NCBI GenBank assembly: GCA_020060385.1
Contig: JAGVAH010000008.1
Span: 1 to 34,219 of the forward strand
Direction: 5' to 3'
Origin: Syntrophobacterales bacterium
Lineage (GTDB): Bacteria > Desulfobacterota > Desulfobaccia > Desulfobaccales > 0-14-0-80-60-11
Length of the DNA stretch: 34,219 nucleotides
Position 1 is the first letter of the stretch; each line of letters opens with the position of its first letter. The notes under the pieces were generated by a model. It did not search any database and was not told the DNA's origin. It saw nothing but the letters and a program-made list of their open reading frames with translations. Below are positions 246 to 7,532 of this stretch, piece by piece. Made by a program: the position numbers and the translations under genes.

Positions 246-1502
246 GTGAGACCTTTTGGAGCCAAAACCTGCCAAACCAGCCCTGGTTGGTTTTCTTACC
301 AGATTTCTTCCGTCTTTTTGGCCCTTTTCCTGGTTGCTTCCTGGACCGGAGTGGTGGCTGCCGCGCCGGCGCAGGACTATGAATCCCTGCGGCTGATCAC
401 GGAAGCCATGCATGAAATTTCCCAGAAATACGTCTGGAAAAAGGGGGAAGAAGAGATAATTTATGGGTCCCTCCGGGGTTTGATGAATTCCCTGGATCCC
501 GATTCTTCTTTTCTCACCCCCCAGGAATATCAACAGGTTTTAAGCGGACATAAGGACCACTTGGCGGAAGCCGGGGTGGATTTGGTTTACAAAGACACCC
601 TCCTCACCGTGGTCGCCGCAGTGGAGGGGGGGCCGGCCTGGCGGGCCGGGTTGCGGCCGGGGGATCATATTCTCAAGATCAATGGGCATCTGGTGCGCAA
701 TCTCACCACCCAGGAGGCCAATCGCCGCTTCCAGGGAAAGGCGGGGACCACCCTCGACCTCCAGGTTTTACGCAATGGCCTGGTCAAACCCCTGGATCTA
801 AAGGTGACCCTGGAGCCCCTGGCCCCGGGGGGGGTGACCTATAAAATCCTGAAGGACTCCTACGTTTATATCCGTATGCCTTGCTTCACCCCGGAGACCG
901 TGACCCAGTTGGCCACCACCTTAAAACAACTGCAGCGTCATCAGCCGGCCCTGAAGGGCTATATTCTCGATCTCCGCAATAATGCCCGGGGGAATATTGA
1001 CCTGGCGGTGCGGGGGGCTTCCCTGTTCATCGGCGATAAAGAGGTCCTCACCGCCCGGGGACGGCCCCCGGAGCCGAGCCAGGTCTTTACCGGCCGGGCC
1101 AAATCGGAAATCTTTAAACCCGGCCAGCCCCTGGTGGCGCTGGTGGACGGCGGCACGGCCCGGGCCTCGGAAGCTCTGGCCGGCGCCCTCCGGGACCAGT
1201 ATGGCGCGGTGCTGCTGGGGAGCAAAACCGTGGGCCTCTGCGGACTCACCAAGACCCTGCCCCTCCAGGACGGCTCAGCTCTAGTGATGACCGTGGCCCA
1301 GTGTTATACGCCTAAAGGCCAGAAGATCCATGGCAAAGGTCTGGAGCCTGAGGTCGCAGGGAAGACCCCGGCGGCCAGCACCTCCGGGGTCACCACTCCG
1401 CCCAAGCTCTCTCCGGAGCAAGACCCCTGGGTGAACCAGGCTTTGGAGATCTTGAAGACCGGCAAGCCCCAAAAAGTGGCGGAAAAGGTGAAGAAGCCAT
1501 GA
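246..1502 (+). CDS. S41/CtpA-like pseudoprotease with PDZ domain (catalytic residues lost)
   Basis: This 418-residue exported protein is built like a C-terminal processing peptidase: a signal or anchor segment (about residues 15-40), a PDZ domain (about 105-185) and an S41 core (about 190-375). The GTG at 246 is preferred over an in-frame ATG at 186 because it has an AGAAGGGG ribosome site at 231-238 and sits right before the signal sequence. The catalytic positions are gone. Where CtpA has SASASE this protein has TARASE, so the nucleophile position (codon 1161-1163) is Arg. Exactly 25 residues later, the GKGSVQ site reads GLCGLT, so the Lys is Leu (codon 1236-1238) and the Gln is Thr. The fold and spacing are kept, which suggests a selected non-catalytic role such as scaffold, substrate adaptor or regulator. 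Its stop overlaps the start of the intact paralogue by 4 bases (ATGA), so the two are probably translationally coupled. Confidence 0.85.
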   Translation: MRPFGAKTCQTSPGWFSYQISSVFLALFLVASWTGVVAAAPAQDYESLRLITEAMHEISQKYVWKKGEEEIIYGSLRGLMNSLDPDSSFLTPQEYQQVLSGHKDHLAEAGVDLVYKDTLLTVVAAVEGGPAWRAGLRPGDHILKINGHLVRNLTTQEANRRFQGKAGTTLDLQVLRNGLVKPLDLKVTLEPLAPGGVTYKILKDSYVYIRMPCFTPETVTQLATTLKQLQRHQPALKGYILDLRNNARGNIDLAVRGASLFIGDKEVLTARGRPPEPSQVFTGRAKSEIFKPGQPLVALVDGGTARASEALAGALRDQYGAVLLGSKTVGLCGLTKTLPLQDGSALVMTVAQCYTPKGQKIHGKGLEPEVAGKTPAASTSGVTTPPKLSPEQDPWVNQALEILKTGKPQKVAEKVKKP

Positions 1503-2878
1503 CTTTGAGCCCTAGGCCTTGGAGAAACCCAATGATCATAAGAAAAATAATGGGGGCCGCCCTCACCCTTTCACTGATTCTGGTCCTTTTCTGGGGCCTG
1601 TCCCTGACGGATTCGACCCCGGTTAACGCCCGCTCCCGGTACGCTCCCCTGCAAATGGCCTCTCTGCCGGAGGTGATCTCACCGGCCACGGATGCCAAAC
1701 TCAAGGTCCTGGCTCAGGCCCTGGCCCTGGTGGAAGAGCAATATGTGGAGCCCAAGACCCCCAAGGATTTAATTTACGGGGCCATCCAGGGCGCGGTGAG
1801 CACCCTGGATTCCCACTCTTCCTTTATGACCCCGGAAGAATACCGGGAACTGCAGATCGAGACCAAGGGCAAGTTCAGCGGCATCGGCATCGAAATCACC
1901 CTGAAGGACCGGATCCTGACGGTGGTTTCTCCCATTGAAGGCACTCCCGCCTACCGCGCGGGCCTCCTGGCCGGGGACCAAATCGTCAAGATCAACGGCG
2001 CGCCCACTAAAAACATGTCCCTCACCGAAGCGGTGAAATCGATCCGGGGCCCCAAAGGCAGCAAGGTGACCCTGACCATCAACCGCCACGGTTTCACCCA
2101 GCCCAAGGACTTTGTCATCGTCCGGGAAATCATTCCCATTCGCAGCGTCAAGGCCCGGGTGGTGAACGACGGCATCGGCTACATCCGTCTGGCCAATTTC
2201 CAGGACCAGACCGACACCGACTTGCAGAACTACCTGAAGAAGATGCAACAGCGCCTCAAGCCCTTTAAAGGCCTGATCCTGGACCTGCGCAATGACCCGG
2301 GGGGCCTGCTGGAACAGGCGGTGCGGGTGGCGGATGAATTCCTCAACTCCGGGCTGATCGTCTATACGGAAGGCCGCACCCCCCACCAGAGCATGCGCTT
2401 TTACGCCCACCCCGGGGAAAAACTGGGGGTGCCCATTCCCATGGTGGTCCTGATTAACGAGGGCAGCGCCTCTGCCTCGGAAATCGTGGCCGGCGCGCTC
2501 AAGGACCAGAAGCGGGCGATTATCATCGGCACCAAAAGCTTCGGCAAGGGTTCGGTGCAGACCATCATTCCCCTGGAAGACGGCTCCGCCCTGCGCCTGA
2601 CCACCGCCCTCTATTACACTCCCAGCGGCACCACCATCCAGGACAAGGGTATTGTCCCGGATGAGGTGGTCAAGGAGAAGGAAATCCCCGCGGGCAAGAG
2701 CCTCCAGAAAGTGCGGGAAGAGTCCCTGAACAAGCACATGCGCAAAGAGGGACTCACGGATAGACCCTGGACCCAGCCCATCACCGCCGCGGAACTGGAT
2801 CAGGACCCCCAACTCAAGCGGGCCGTGGAGCTGATCCGCAACTGGCCCCCCAAAAAGTTGGCCCAGCAGGCGAAGTGA
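1499..2878 (+). CDS. ctpA: C-terminal processing peptidase (S41 family)
   Basis: This 459-residue periplasmic serine protease cleaves exported proteins near their C-termini. It has an N-terminal membrane or signal segment (about residues 12-35), a PDZ domain (about 122-205) that recognises substrate C-termini, and an S41 core. The Ser-Lys dyad is intact: Ser325 within GSASASE (codon 2471-2473), Lys350 within FGKGSVQ (codon 2546-2548), and the assisting Gln354. Translation may start at 1499, overlapping the upstream stop, or at the ATG at 1532, which has a GGAGA site ahead of it and is closer to the hydrophobic segment. The gene upstream is a catalytically dead copy. A strong terminator follows at 2929-2956. 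Confidence 0.95.
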   Translation: MTLSPRPWRNPMIIRKIMGAALTLSLILVLFWGLSLTDSTPVNARSRYAPLQMASLPEVISPATDAKLKVLAQALALVEEQYVEPKTPKDLIYGAIQGAVSTLDSHSSFMTPEEYRELQIETKGKFSGIGIEITLKDRILTVVSPIEGTPAYRAGLLAGDQIVKINGAPTKNMSLTEAVKSIRGPKGSKVTLTINRHGFTQPKDFVIVREIIPIRSVKARVVNDGIGYIRLANFQDQTDTDLQNYLKKMQQRLKPFKGLILDLRNDPGGLLEQAVRVADEFLNSGLIVYTEGRTPHQSMRFYAHPGEKLGVPIPMVVLINEGSASASEIVAGALKDQKRAIIIGTKSFGKGSVQTIIPLEDGSALRLTTALYYTPSGTTIQDKGIVPDEVVKEKEIPAGKSLQKVREESLNKHMRKEGLTDRPWTQPITAAELDQDPQLKRAVELIRNWPPKKLAQQAK

Positions 2879-2928
2879 GGGTTTACCGTTTTCCGTTGAA
2901 AACCGGAACAACGCTTGTACAGCTTGAG

Positions 2929-2956
2929 GGGGAATGATTAAATCATTCCCCTTTTT
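2929..2956 (+). terminator. Rho-independent terminator after ctpA
   Basis: A 9-bp perfect stem (GGGGAATGA pairing with TCATTCCCC, loop TTAAA) is followed at once by TTTTT. It lies 50 bases after the ctpA stop and ends the tkt/ctp transcription unit before der. Confidence 0.9.
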
Positions 2957-3032
2957 AATCAGGGCGAGGAGGGCGGTTTTTCATTAATTTTCGTCTTCGC
3001 TATCCCCTTCCCTTCAAAGTTTCCTTAACTGA

Positions 3033-3061
3033 TTGATTAATCGATTGAAAACTGCTTATTT
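3033..3061 (+). promoter_or_regulatory. possible sigma-70 promoter for der
   Basis: TTGATT (3033-3038) and TTATTT (3056-3061) are separated by 17 bases in an AT-rich stretch between the ctpA terminator and der. The predicted transcript would start about 15 bases before the ATG, leaving no room for a ribosome-binding site. None is visible ahead of that ATG. Moderate match only. Confidence 0.35.
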
Positions 3062-3081
3062 ATTCAGCCTTCGCAATCAAA

Positions 3082-4455
3082 ATGTCTAGTTCTTTTCACG
3101 GAAAACGGAAAACGGAAAACGGAAAACCCTCAGTACCAGAGGGCCTGGTGGCCATCATCGGCCGGGCCAACGTGGGCAAATCCACCCTTTTTAACCGCCT
3201 GACCCGCACTTCCCAGGCCCTGGTGGCGGATTTTCCCGGGGTCACCCGGGACCGCCTCTATGGGCAGGTGGACTGGGAAGATTTTTCGTTTTTGCTGGTG
3301 GACACCGGCGGCCTGGTGGGGGGCGAGGAGGAGTTGGGAGAACTGGTGCGCCGCCAGGCCGAGGCCGCGGTGGCGGAAGCCGACGTCCTCCTCCTGGTGA
3401 TGGACGGCAAAGAGGGCCCCCAGGCCGGGGACGGGGAGGTGATCGACTACCTGCGGCGCACCGGCAAGCCCTTCCTCCTGGTGGTGAACAAGATTGACCA
3501 TCCGGGCCGGGAGGAGCGGCTCCCGGAATTCTACCGCTTCGGCGTCACCCCCCTGCTGCCCGTGTCCGCGGTCCACGGCCTGGGTCTGGACGCCCTCCTG
3601 GCGGCCCTGGTCGAGAAACTGCCCCAACCGGAAGAGGCCGCGGAGCCGCCCCTGCCGGGCATCCGGGTGGCCATCCTGGGCCGGCCCAACGTGGGGAAAT
3701 CCTCCCTGGTCAACCGCTTCCTGGGCCAGGAGCGCCTCCTGGTTAGTCCCCGGCCGGGGACCACCCGGGACGTGGTGGATACGCCCTTGACCTGGCAGGA
3801 TCAGGATTATGTCCTGGTGGATACCGCGGGGCTGCGGCGGCCCAGCCAGGTGGCGGCCGGGCTGGAGAGGCAAATGGTGCTCAAGGCCATCAAGGCCCTG
3901 TCCCGGGCGGAAGTGGCGCTGCTGCTCCTGGACGCCCAGGAGGGGCTGACCCAGCAGGACCTGCGCATCGCCGGGCTCATCCAGGATCAGGGCAAGGGTT
4001 GCCTCATCCTGGTGAATAAGTGGGACCTGGTGAAGCCAGACCCCCAGCAGGCCCAAAAGGTCCTGGAGCGGGTGGCCTCGGGCTTGGAGGTCATAGCTTA
4101 CGTGCCGGTGCTGCCGGTCTCCGTCAAGACCGGTTACAACACCCACAAGGTCTTTCCTTTACTCCACGACATTTACCAACAGAGCCGGCGCCGGGTGGCC
4201 ACCCGGGAACTCAACCTGCTCCTCAAGGAGATCACCGACCGGGTGCCCCCCTCCCGGTACCGGGACCGGCCGGTGAAATTCCTTTACCTGACCCAGGCGG
4301 AAATCCAGCCTCCCACCTTCATCGCCTTTGTCAATCAACCCGCAGGGGTCAAGGACTCCTACCGCCGCTACCTGGTGAAGCAGTTGCGGGAGAGGTTGAA
4401 CCTCCCCCACGCGCCGGTGCGCCTCTACCTGAAAGGCAGAAAGCGCCGGGGCTAG
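3082..4455 (+). CDS. der: ribosome-assembly GTPase Der (EngA)
   Basis: This 457-residue double-GTPase is needed for late assembly of the 50S ribosomal subunit. The first G domain has its P-loop at residues 27-34 (GRANVGKS), then DTGG and NKID. The second has GRPNVGKS at 200-207, then DTAG and NKWD. A KH-like RNA-binding domain fills about residues 370-457. Two details are odd. The first P-loop has Ala where Pro is usual. A 20-residue basic N-terminal extension is encoded by a heptamer repeat. No other ATG, GTG or TTG lies between 3082 and the first P-loop that would leave the fold intact, so 3082 is the likely start although no Shine-Dalgarno sequence precedes it. Confidence 0.95.
   Translation: MSSSFHGKRKTENGKPSVPEGLVAIIGRANVGKSTLFNRLTRTSQALVADFPGVTRDRLYGQVDWEDFSFLLVDTGGLVGGEEELGELVRRQAEAAVAEADVLLLVMDGKEGPQAGDGEVIDYLRRTGKPFLLVVNKIDHPGREERLPEFYRFGVTPLLPVSAVHGLGLDALLAALVEKLPQPEEAAEPPLPGIRVAILGRPNVGKSSLVNRFLGQERLLVSPRPGTTRDVVDTPLTWQDQDYVLVDTAGLRRPSQVAAGLERQMVLKAIKALSRAEVALLLLDAQEGLTQQDLRIAGLIQDQGKGCLILVNKWDLVKPDPQQAQKVLERVASGLEVIAYVPVLPVSVKTGYNTHKVFPLLHDIYQQSRRRVATRELNLLLKEITDRVPPSRYRDRPVKFLYLTQAEIQPPTFIAFVNQPAGVKDSYRRYLVKQLRERLNLPHAPVRLYLKGRKRRG
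3099..3126 (+). repeat. four tandem CGGAAAA heptamers inside the 5' end of der
   Basis: Four exact copies of the heptamer CGGAAAA lie in codons 6-15 of der and encode part of its atypical Lys-rich N-terminal extension. A related sequence lies inverted at the end of ctpA (about 2875-2903): CCGTTTTCCGTT there is the complement of AACGGAAAACGG here. Gain or loss of one unit would shift the der frame. Confidence 0.8.
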
Positions 4456-4699
4456 CCCCACGGAGGTGGCGGCGCGGCACCGGCCTTCCCCAAATCACCT
4501 CCGGGAAACCTGGAACCCAGGGCTTAGGGAGAGAGAAAAAGACAAAATTAGTTTTGGGTGGCGAGGATAATTGCAGACGTGGACTGGGGAAAATTCCGCC
4601 ACAAGGAGTAGCGGGATTCAATGAAATAATTATCCCTGCCCCTGCCTGCCGCTGCCGGAGTCGGGGATTGGTAATTAACCGCAGTTTTGCCGGATTGTT

Positions 4700-4999
4700 C
4701 TAAACTTTAACCAGCCGCAGTGTGGGGCGCCCGCCCTGTCGGCGCTCCGTCTTGATGGCATTCCCTTTCTTCAGGGCATTTTTGACCCGGACCCCGTTGA
4801 TCAGGAAGTAGGCGATCACCGCCCTTTCCCAGGCGGGAGAGACCTCCAATTGCTCCATGCGGGTTTTGAAATAATTAAGAAGTTCGTTAAGGTCCGGTTC
4901 GTCGTAAGCAAGTACTCGGTCAGCTAAGCGTTCAATGGCTTCAGCGATCATGAATGCGATCTTTCTTCCTCCAGCAATTTTCTGTCCCATTGCGGACAC
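4700..4999 (-). CDS. small protein of unknown function
   Basis: This open frame of up to 99 residues has no family I recognise. It is predicted to be mostly helical, with an acidic middle (AYDEPDLNELLNYFKTRME) and a basic C-terminal tail (RRQGGRPTLRLVKV). The longest form starts at GTG 4999, which has no ribosome site. An ATG at 4951 has GGAGGA about 13 bases upstream and gives 83 residues. A TTGACT hexamer lies just upstream on the same strand. It converges with der and follows the creatininase gene. Amino-acid composition looks like a real protein and not a shadow of another gene, but support is modest. Confidence 0.5.
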   Translation of the reverse strand: MSAMGQKIAGGRKIAFMIAEAIERLADRVLAYDEPDLNELLNYFKTRMEQLEVSPAWERAVIAYFLINGVRVKNALKKGNAIKTERRQGGRPTLRLVKV

Positions 5000-5050: not shown

Positions 5051-5785
5051 TCAGGTTATTTTTTCCCCTTCCAGGGCCGCGATCACCTGGAGCAGACGCC
5101 GCACCTCCGCCCGCAAAATCTCCTCCCCCTGGGCCGGGGTGGCCGGGGACGGATCGCCCCATACCCCCCCGGGCCAAAAACGCCGCTTGTCCCGCACCAG
5201 GATATACTTGGGAAACGCAGGCCACTCCGCCGGGGCCGTGCCCTTGACCAAATGGGGGGACGCGGCCAGCATGAGCGCGGTCTCCACCTCCCCGGCGTGG
5301 GCGTCGCCTTTAGTGCGCACCAGGTGGGGATTTTCGGTGAGAACCTCCCGGAGCAGGTCCAGGACATTGACCACCGCCACCCGGATCTCCGGGAGCGCGG
5401 CCAGCAAGGTCTCCCCCGCCTCCAGGAGCGCGGCCATATGGGTGCCCCCGGCATGGCCGCTGAGGATGACCAGGTTAGAAAATCCCTGGCGCCAAAACTC
5501 CCAGCCCAGGTCCAGCACCAAAGCCCGGAGCGTGTCCCCGGAAATGCTCACCGTGCCCGGGTGCTCCCGGGTGGAGCGGCAGACCCCGTAAAATATAGGC
5601 GGCGCCACCACGATGGGGTGCTCCCGGGCTACCCTGCGGGCCACCTCCAGGGCATGAAACGCGTCCGTGCCCAGGGGCAGATGGGGCCCATGCTCCTCCA
5701 GGGAGCCCACGGGGAGGATCACCGTCCGCCCCTTTTCCCGGGCCGCCTCGAATTCCGGCATGGTCAGGTCTTCCCAGTCAGCCAT
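5051..5785 (-). CDS. creatininase-family amidohydrolase
   Basis: This 244-residue metal-dependent hydrolase belongs to the creatinine amidohydrolase superfamily, whose members open cyclic amides or process small peptides and pterin-like substrates. Visible metal-site motifs are GSLEEHGPHLP with Glu30 and His32, GTD with Asp41, SGHAGGTH with His111, and GDAHAGEVETALM with the distal Glu. The spacing from His32 to Asp41 equals that of true creatininase. The full family length is present. The ATG at 5785 begins MADWEDLTMPEFE, typical of the family's N-terminus. There is no informative neighbour, so the substrate cannot be named. The mycofactocin factor MftE is in the same family but no mycofactocin genes are seen here. 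Confidence 0.85.
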   Translation of the reverse strand: MADWEDLTMPEFEAAREKGRTVILPVGSLEEHGPHLPLGTDAFHALEVARRVAREHPIVVAPPIFYGVCRSTREHPGTVSISGDTLRALVLDLGWEFWRQGFSNLVILSGHAGGTHMAALLEAGETLLAALPEIRVAVVNVLDLLREVLTENPHLVRTKGDAHAGEVETALMLAASPHLVKGTAPAEWPAFPKYILVRDKRRFWPGGVWGDPSPATPAQGEEILRAEVRRLLQVIAALEGEKIT

Positions 5786-6095: not shown

Positions 6096-7532
6096 CTAGG
6101 CCAGGGCGTAAATACCCCGGAAATTGGTGGTGGCGGCGTACGTCCCCCCTCCATTCCTGGTGGCCGTAACCGTGGTCCCCTCGAGGGCCTTGCCCCCCGC
6201 CATGACCCGGCCGCTGATGATCTCCCCGGCGCCGCTGGTATAAATATTATAGAGACACTCCAAAACCAGATTATAGGTGCCTTGCGTTTTGGTATCGACA
6301 TTGGGCAGATTGTACCAGGCATCTTCAAGGCCGTTCCAACCCATGTTCAAATGATGGTATAAGGTGGACAAATTATAACCATAACCATCGGCCACCACGT
6401 CGTGTCCATTTTTAGGGTCGCTCATATTGATGATCCCCAATTGCACCGGCAGGGAAGCATCCAGGTTGGCGTTGATCATCGCCTTGAGGTTGGCATTGGG
6501 AATCCCGGTCTCGGCCCCGCCATCGATGACATTTTTATAGTTAAAGGTATTAACCAAGGCCAGACGGACATCCGAGGTATTAGCTGCCGAGGACTCCTTG
6601 GTGTATTCCATCTTAATGGCGGTCGCCGCGTCATGGATCAAGGCGCCGATGGCCTGGAGCTGCACATCGTTGGCGCCTGTCTTCGGCTCCGCCACCATAT
6701 TTCCCCAGTCATAAGCCCCCCCTTTGCCATCTCCGCCCCTGAGTTTTTCCTGCTTGTCTCTGCCATCCACCTTGATGGTGAATTCCGGCGTTCCGACCTT
6801 GTCCGTGGGGTGTTTATGGTGCCGCATAATTTGAGCCATGGCCGTGGCCACGCAGCCACAGGGGTAATTGCTGACACTGCCCGGATCATAAGGGGGAGTA
6901 TAGAAATTGTAGCAGGCCTTCACAGCGGTCCCGATAGTCACTACGTCCTGGTCCCAGCGGGTCGCTACCAGGGGATCCACCCTGGGGTCCGAGACCGTGG
7001 GCAGGCCGGATTCCTGCCCCCGGTTTTCCAAGAGGCCAGCCTCCGTCCCCTGGTTGAGCAAAGATTGCCATTTGCTCCAGGCCTGGGCTTGCGCGCCTTG
7101 GGGCTGAAAAGGCACCTTTTCCGTCTGCGCCTGGGCTGCCGCGGCCCGGACTAGGGCCAGCCGCTGGGGCACATCCCTGGTGACCCAAGCCCCCAGGGGG
7201 TTGGCGCCGGAGGGATCATATTGTCCCTGGGGGGCGAAGGCGATAATCGGCTCCACCAGGTCGTCCCCGGGCACGATGACCAAACTCTGGGGCTCCAAAT
7301 AAACCACATAGTAGGCGATTCCCGTTTGCCCCTGAAAGGCTTGGACCTCTTTTACCTGCCGGCCCATGATGGCGTCCAGGGGTCTGCTGTCCCGGGCCAG
7401 CCAGCCCCGCACCACCCGTTGGGCCTGGTCGGCAGTGGTGGGCGCGGCCGGGACTGACGCCGGAATAAGCCAAATGCTCAGGAAAAAAATGTCGGCCAGG
7501 ATGATGGTCACTCTTTGATGATTTTTTTTCAC
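6096..7532 (-). CDS. secreted C10 (streptopain-like) cysteine peptidase, C-terminal domain cut by TAG
   Basis: This 478-residue protein has a signal peptide (about residues 1-29, cut near SVPA-A), a propeptide of the Spi/SpeB-prodomain kind (about 30-190) and a C10 peptidase domain. The active-site Cys is Cys227 in CGCVATAMAQIM. The catalytic His is His377 in GHDVVADGYGY. After the peptidase comes the start of a carboxypeptidase-regulatory-like beta domain (ISGRVMAGGKALEGTTV...), but a TAG at 6098-6096 stops translation in mid-domain. The same frame continues for another 59 sensible codons. Translation begins at GTG 7532, with GAGAAGG just upstream. The peptidase core appears complete and probably active. 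The gene stands alone, divergent from the nuo operon. Confidence 0.88.
   Translation of the reverse strand: MKKNHQRVTIILADIFFLSIWLIPASVPAAPTTADQAQRVVRGWLARDSRPLDAIMGRQVKEVQAFQGQTGIAYYVVYLEPQSLVIVPGDDLVEPIIAFAPQGQYDPSGANPLGAWVTRDVPQRLALVRAAAAQAQTEKVPFQPQGAQAQAWSKWQSLLNQGTEAGLLENRGQESGLPTVSDPRVDPLVATRWDQDVVTIGTAVKACYNFYTPPYDPGSVSNYPCGCVATAMAQIMRHHKHPTDKVGTPEFTIKVDGRDKQEKLRGGDGKGGAYDWGNMVAEPKTGANDVQLQAIGALIHDAATAIKMEYTKESSAANTSDVRLALVNTFNYKNVIDGGAETGIPNANLKAMINANLDASLPVQLGIINMSDPKNGHDVVADGYGYNLSTLYHHLNMGWNGLEDAWYNLPNVDTKTQGTYNLVLECLYNIYTSGAGEIISGRVMAGGKALEGTTVTATRNGGGTYAATTNFRGIYALA

Follow-up and report, generated by a model that had tools for sequence, protein, structure and literature searches.

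A catalytically dead CtpA paralogue beside ctpA in Desulfobaccales: a proposed resting partner of the active protease

The DNA analysed here (the window) comprises the first 34,219 nucleotides, from the contig end onward, of contig JAGVAH010000008.1 of a Syntrophobacterales bacterium (assembly GCA_020060385.1; order Desulfobaccales). Close to its beginning two genes for C-terminal processing proteases (CTPs) of the S41 family lie in tandem, and the first of them (246-1502, forward strand) encodes a catalytically dead paralogue of the second, the active CtpA (1499-2878, forward strand). The dead copy arose once, is retained next to ctpA across the order under purifying selection, has selectively kept its dimerisation helices and is predicted to fold like a resting CtpA subunit. 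We therefore propose, with moderate confidence, that this dead and structurally resting subunit and the adjacent CtpA associate as an N-terminal heterodimer, either obligately or by preference. Whether the order has in this way converted the one-on/one-off asymmetry of a CtpA homodimer into a fixed two-gene heterodimer, and so provides a separation-of-function for the half-of-sites behaviour of hexameric CtpA, we regard as an evenly balanced question. No description of a dead CTP partner, or of a 'pseudoprotease' in connection with 'C-terminal processing protease', was found in the open-access literature, and as far as that literature shows a pseudoprotease partner is undescribed in this family.

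Architecture of the gene pair

The dead copy (418 amino acids, periplasmic) was read from GTG 246, which matches the starts of its homologues and lies within a longer in-frame open reading frame (ORF) from ATG 186; its residues are numbered from this GTG. The protein consists of a signal sequence (residues 1-40, 246-365; a hydrophobic stretch ending AAA-AP that varies among orthologues), an N-terminal dimerisation region (NDR) with helices H1-H2 (372-515, mapped by alignment to Pseudomonas aeruginosa CtpA, PMC11021448), a PDZ domain (522-812), an S41 core (864-1355, 4.9e-35) and a C-terminal helix for C-dimerisation (1425-1463), all on the forward strand. The active CtpA (459 amino acids, start ATG 1499) has the same domain build and is 34% identical to the dead copy; its Ser325 (2471-2473), Lys350 (2546-2548) and Gln354 are intact, as are His106, Phe126 and Arg183.

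Both proteins match the S41 family PF03572, the dead copy with 119 bits (1.8e-34, cut-off 24) and the active CtpA with 193 bits, and both match PDZ in Pfam, in the dead copy as PF17820/PF13180 at residues 110-187, where the strands and helices of the domain are also present in the predicted model. The stricter profile TIGR00225 'C-terminal processing peptidase' (prc; cut-off 218.6 bits) is passed by the active CtpA at 341 bits and failed by the dead copy at 194.1 bits. A domain search of the host genome (4.15 Mb, 99.95% complete) returned no third Peptidase_S41 domain, and the active copy is thus the only CtpA-type protease of the cell.

Loss of the catalytic residues

A first-pass annotation of the window had described the first gene as a dead protease in which Ser, Lys and Gln are changed to Arg, Leu and Thr at a retained 25-residue spacing, followed by an intact second copy, and translation confirms this exactly. 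Arg306 (cgg, 1161-1163) occupies the position of the nucleophile and is found in 26 of the 27 orthologues, with Gln in Desulfobacca acetoxidans. Leu331 (1236-1238) stands at the site of the general base Lys, where the orthologues carry Leu (20), Asp (4), Asn (2) or Glu (1), and Thr335 (1248-1250) at the site of the Gln. The helper His (His-84 in P. aeruginosa) is replaced by Asp86 (501-503; Asp in 20 orthologues, Asn in four, Thr in two, Ser in one), and the motif DPGG, which provides the substrate strand and the oxyanion glycine, by NARG (981-992; NARG or TAGG in most dead copies). According to the alignment, Ser, Lys, Gln and helper His are all missing in 27/27 dead orthologues, although the Ser-Lys spacing and the flanking core are retained. 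In the active copies, Ser-Lys-Gln, the helper His and the sensor Arg and Phe of the PDZ domain are intact in 26/26, or in 25/25 where the respective position is present. This pattern of losses is far beyond chance. Judged by its sequence, the dead copy should be unable to cut proteins and is best described as a pseudoprotease.

Asp301 (1146-1148), five residues before Arg306, is invariant in all 27 dead copies at a position where the active CtpA has an invariant Asn. A salt bridge between Asp301 and Arg306 that locks the former active site is plausible.

Distribution and origin

The search covered 59 relatives, then the entire order Desulfobaccales (29 genomes) and a sample of 395 genomes of the phylum. 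Of the 29 genomes of the order, 27 contain both the dead gene and ctpA; they represent 10 genera and two families, and at all 27 assembled loci an active paralogue stands beside the dead copy. Wherever both genes lie on one contig the dead gene is upstream of ctpA, and the GTPase Der/EngA (3082-4455, forward strand, in the window), which served as locus marker and fold control, follows the pair wherever the contig extends far enough. The two genomes without the pair (81% and 94% complete) also lack Der, which indicates that the locus was not assembled; gene loss was therefore rejected. In one genome (L056) two genes of the same strand (2875-4727), which we take to encode an ArsM-type methyltransferase and an MtrA-like protein, separate the dead gene from ctpA, both of which have stayed intact; in its sister genome (G021) the contig breaks between the same two genes.

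Against a profile built from the dead copies, members of this family in the order score 617-683 bits and the best match from elsewhere 387 bits, and the dead copy was not found outside Desulfobaccales among the 395 genomes of the phylum. The top 13 outside matches, considered as possible active relatives of the dead gene, all turned out to be intact CtpAs with SxS/GKGSVQ active sites, and matches to Verrucomicrobia obtained with peptide patterns were rejected for the same reason. The phylogenetic tree unites the dead copies in one clade with an SH-aLRT support of 100, and the active copies of the order in a second clade with a support of 97. Since the internal branching of the two clades is similar, a single duplication predating the split of the two families is indicated. 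The dead copy thus derives from one old duplication in Desulfobaccales; its stem is long, and the tree leaves the sister of the dead clade undefined.

Selection on the dead copy and conservation of its regions

The dead copy is clearly constrained by purifying selection. Pairwise dN/dS values obtained with two methods range from about 0.03 to 0.35 and are mostly one to three times those of ctpA; all 27 ORFs are intact, and 68 alignment columns are invariant among the 27 sequences. With a mean distance of 0.63, compared with 0.31 for the active copy, the dead copy has changed at roughly twice the rate. Decay or a sequencing error was rejected on account of the 27 intact orthologues. The expectation of the first-pass annotation that relatives would keep the inactive paralogue upstream of ctpA under purifying selection is thus borne out in 27 genomes; neither a relative with Ser and Lys intact nor a broken copy, which it had named as evidence to the contrary, was encountered.

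The constraint is unevenly distributed over the protein. Per-column identity in the 23 genomes with both genes at full length is the same for the NDR of both copies (0.63 vs 0.63), whereas the PDZ domain, the linker/cap and the core reach 0.47-0.60 in the dead copy compared with 0.74-0.77 in the active copy. A difference between dead and active copy as small as that of the NDR occurred in only five of 335 circular windows of equal size. The C-terminal helix is also retained (0.54 vs 0.66). The dimerisation helices are therefore the part of the dead copy that has been selectively kept.

The residues that were lost, in addition to those of catalysis, are those of substrate binding and of the active state in the PDZ domain, together with the trans-interacting/motile loop, which is kept in the active CtpA (2690-2794) and shortened and variable in 27/27 dead copies. 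Phe-105 and Arg-162 hold Helicobacter pylori CtpA in the active state, and an F105R mutant is locked at rest in every subunit (PMC12749690). The equivalent of Phe-105 is lost in all 27 dead copies and that of Arg-162 in 25 of them, where Gln is found instead (Gln163, 732-734, in the window); both are kept in all active copies of the order. Tyr45 at the start of H1 shows the opposite distribution, being invariant in the 27 dead copies and in 17 CtpAs from outside the order and lost in the active copies of the order. This may reflect a division of tasks between the two copies at the dimerisation helix.

Note that the motile loop of the active copies has its own peculiarity: the motif REKDL of other CtpAs reads R(D/E/Q)EAL in the order (residues 406-410, 2714-2728 in the window), which shifts or relaxes the catalytic helper Glu (Asp/Glu/Gln).

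Predicted structures

AlphaFold was applied to single chains, namely the natural read-through fusions of relatives in which both genes lie in one frame. The alignments for these models consisted of read-through fusions only, and the control was matched in size and alignment design. The fusion of dead copy and CtpA (L066) was modelled with a pTM of 0.68 and a mean pLDDT of 78.5, compared with 0.42 and 73.7 for a fusion of CtpA and Der (L064), the single control. The dead half superimposes on P. aeruginosa 8sxe_B (2.5 Å, Z 37.5), on the all-resting H. pylori mutant 9ku0_D (2.5 Å, Z 36), on the all-resting 9ksp_B (3.0 Å) and on resting CtpB 4c2e (3.3 Å), while the CtpA half of the same fusion matches 8sxg_A and active CtpB 4c2c/4c2g; chains A of the 8sx entries were taken as active and chains B as inactive by inference from these structure matches. 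In the Der control, where the dead partner is missing, CtpA lies at about 4 Å from active and about 8 Å from resting chains. CtpA alone is thus modelled in the active form, which indicates that the resting shape belongs to the dead sequence and is not the default of AlphaFold for this family. The dead copy is accordingly predicted to adopt the resting conformation and the active copy the active one.

Gene overlap and neighbouring genes

The 4-base overlap of the tandem S41 and PDZ proteins reported by the first-pass annotation is present as an ATGA stop/start (1499-1502, forward strand). Its suggestion that coupled translation sets the ratio of the two proteins finds no support as a general mechanism: the overlap exists in just eight of 25 pairs, namely in all six members of the genus of the window with an assembled junction and in two members of the other family, and translational coupling cannot be the conserved mechanism. 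The remaining pairs are separated by 11-199 nt, except for the 1853 nt of the locus with two inserted genes. Translational coupling may act within the genus of the window.

Two further genes of the window were noted on the reverse strand. A Creatininase-family protein (PF02633) is encoded at 5051-5785, and relatives from the two families carry homologues of it close to Der. A protein of 478 residues, in which Pfam recognises a Peptidase_C10 (streptopain-type) domain and a Spi inhibitor domain, is encoded at 6096-7532 near a nuo-like operon.

Discussion

CtpA dimers are known to work asymmetrically. In P. aeruginosa only the subunit at the front of a CtpA dimer is switched on by the adaptor LbcA, and its partner at the back remains inactive (PMC11021448). 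In H. pylori CtpA at most one subunit per N-terminal dimer is active, because the shared four-helix module moves to one side only; the chamber is closed by the PDZ domain of the subunit at rest (PMC12749690). From this single active subunit per dimer we propose a hard-wired heterodimer. In an ancestor of Desulfobaccales ctpA would have been duplicated, and one duplicate would have lost all catalytic residues as well as those stabilising the active conformation, while keeping the dimerisation helices and the C-terminal helix. The dead copy would then permanently occupy the resting seat and the intact copy would always be the catalytic one, in an N-terminal heterodimer that may be obligate or preferred. 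A division of the two seats between two genes is the most economical reading of the data. The suggestion of the first-pass annotation that the dead copy may regulate the active CtpA as its partner gains indirect support from the strict co-occurrence, the conserved dimerisation helices, the predicted resting state and the higher pTM of the fusion; what we infer is the physical heterodimer, together with its higher-order assembly and its influence on activity or on the choice of substrates.

Several observations weigh against this proposal. The comparison of the fusions is one of overall scores, with one control fusion, and AlphaFold may predict a dimer for any two paralogues of the CTP family. 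The active CtpA may also homodimerise. The loop by which a resting subunit serves the active site of its neighbour (Glu-385 in P. aeruginosa) is missing in 27/27 dead copies, which makes it unlikely that the known hexamer is reproduced exactly; the assembly may be a dimer, or the loop may be used from active subunits only. The distances of both proteins co-vary beyond those of Der with a partial r of 0.58 overall and of 0.07 for NDR against NDR. This partial Mantel test, with Der as control, was significant overall and not specific to the dimerisation region, and its result was for that reason not used as evidence of co-evolution.

Alternatively, the dead copy could be a dedicated inhibitor or competitor that associates transiently with CtpA or its membrane adaptor, or forms homodimers of its own, and reduces proteolysis by titrating adaptor or substrate, without acting as a stoichiometric subunit. 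LbcA of P. aeruginosa binds between both H1 dimerisation helices (PMC11021448), the very region that is best kept in the dead copy, and the Tyr45 at the start of H1 that the active CtpAs of the order have lost is present there. Titration of a substrate is nevertheless unlikely, since the substrate-binding residues of the PDZ domain are lost; no adaptor was identified in the host genome, in which no search aimed at adaptors was made, and in the fusion model the two proteins seem to be placed confidently relative to each other. We consider this alternative unlikely, and slightly less likely still that the dead copy has taken on an independent role as a binding protein of the periplasm, comparable to MamO or the S41 modules of IRBP, and merely shares its transcription with ctpA. 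The former active site has conserved Arg306, Asp301 (27/27) and, in family f1, a Gly-Leu-Cys-Gly motif, as if a ligand were bound there or the site were locked by a salt bridge, and inactive proteases that have acquired a new use are on record (PMC4794232). Against this reading, the dead copy stays close to ctpA in all 27 genomes, including the one in which two genes have entered the pair, and its former active site is less conserved than that of the active copy, the selectively kept part being the dimerisation helices.

Residual proteolysis by other residues is very improbable. The modelled fold is intact and selection is purifying, but nucleophile, base, Gln and helper His are gone, as is the DPGG glycine in most copies, and the replacements at the Lys site (Leu, Asp, Asn, Glu) and the Gln site (Thr, Ser, His, Asn, Val) differ between families, so that no new conserved catalytic set has emerged. 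A decaying, functionless duplicate, for which the twofold faster evolution might speak, is refuted by intact ORFs in two families, the invariant columns and dN/dS values well below 1.

If the proposed heterodimer is correct, the resting subunit of a CtpA dimer is needed and its active site is not. Resting and catalytic roles could then each be mutated separately, which makes the role of the resting subunit directly testable.

Comparison with known systems

The closest relatives of the proposed assembly are CtpA/LbcA of P. aeruginosa (PDB 7RPQ/8SXE; PMC8764530, PMC11021448), which share the fold, the order NDR-PDZ-S41-C-terminal helix and the combination of one active and one inactive subunit. 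There the subunits are interchangeable products of one gene, whereas here the resting role is apparently fixed in a dead gene without a trans-interacting loop. H. pylori CtpA (PDB 9JR1/9KU0/9KU3, PMC12749690) likewise has one active subunit per N-terminal dimer, and the all-resting state of its F105R mutant (9ku0) corresponds to that predicted for the dead copy, but it is a switching homo-oligomer from one gene and has no dead paralogue. CtpB of Bacillus subtilis (PDB 4C2C/4C2E) is a CTP dimer gated by PDZ domains and has both a resting and an active state, and by its numbering the sensor Arg168 probably corresponds to the Arg replaced by Gln in the dead copy; both of its subunits are independently active (stated in PMC12749690), and it lacks a dead partner.

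More distant systems offer analogies. In hetero-oligomers of the ClpP1/ClpP2 type the subunit of one paralogue alters the activity of the other, according to a study on Listeria (PMC5361862). Their fold is unrelated and their partner ATP-dependent, and no shared membership is claimed. CspC and CspB of Clostridioides difficile are encoded in the same operon neighbourhood. CspC is a pseudoprotease paralogue that regulates a protease pathway (PMC6636752), although it belongs to the subtilisin family and acts in spore-germination signalling. This comparison is an analogy, as is that with ClpP. The S41 fold itself also occurs in a non-enzymatic form, in the S41-like modules of IRBP/RBP3 (PDB 4LUR, 9FRX). 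IRBP/RBP3 is an animal retinoid carrier without a dimeric CTP partner, and it gives a weaker structural match (Z ≈18).
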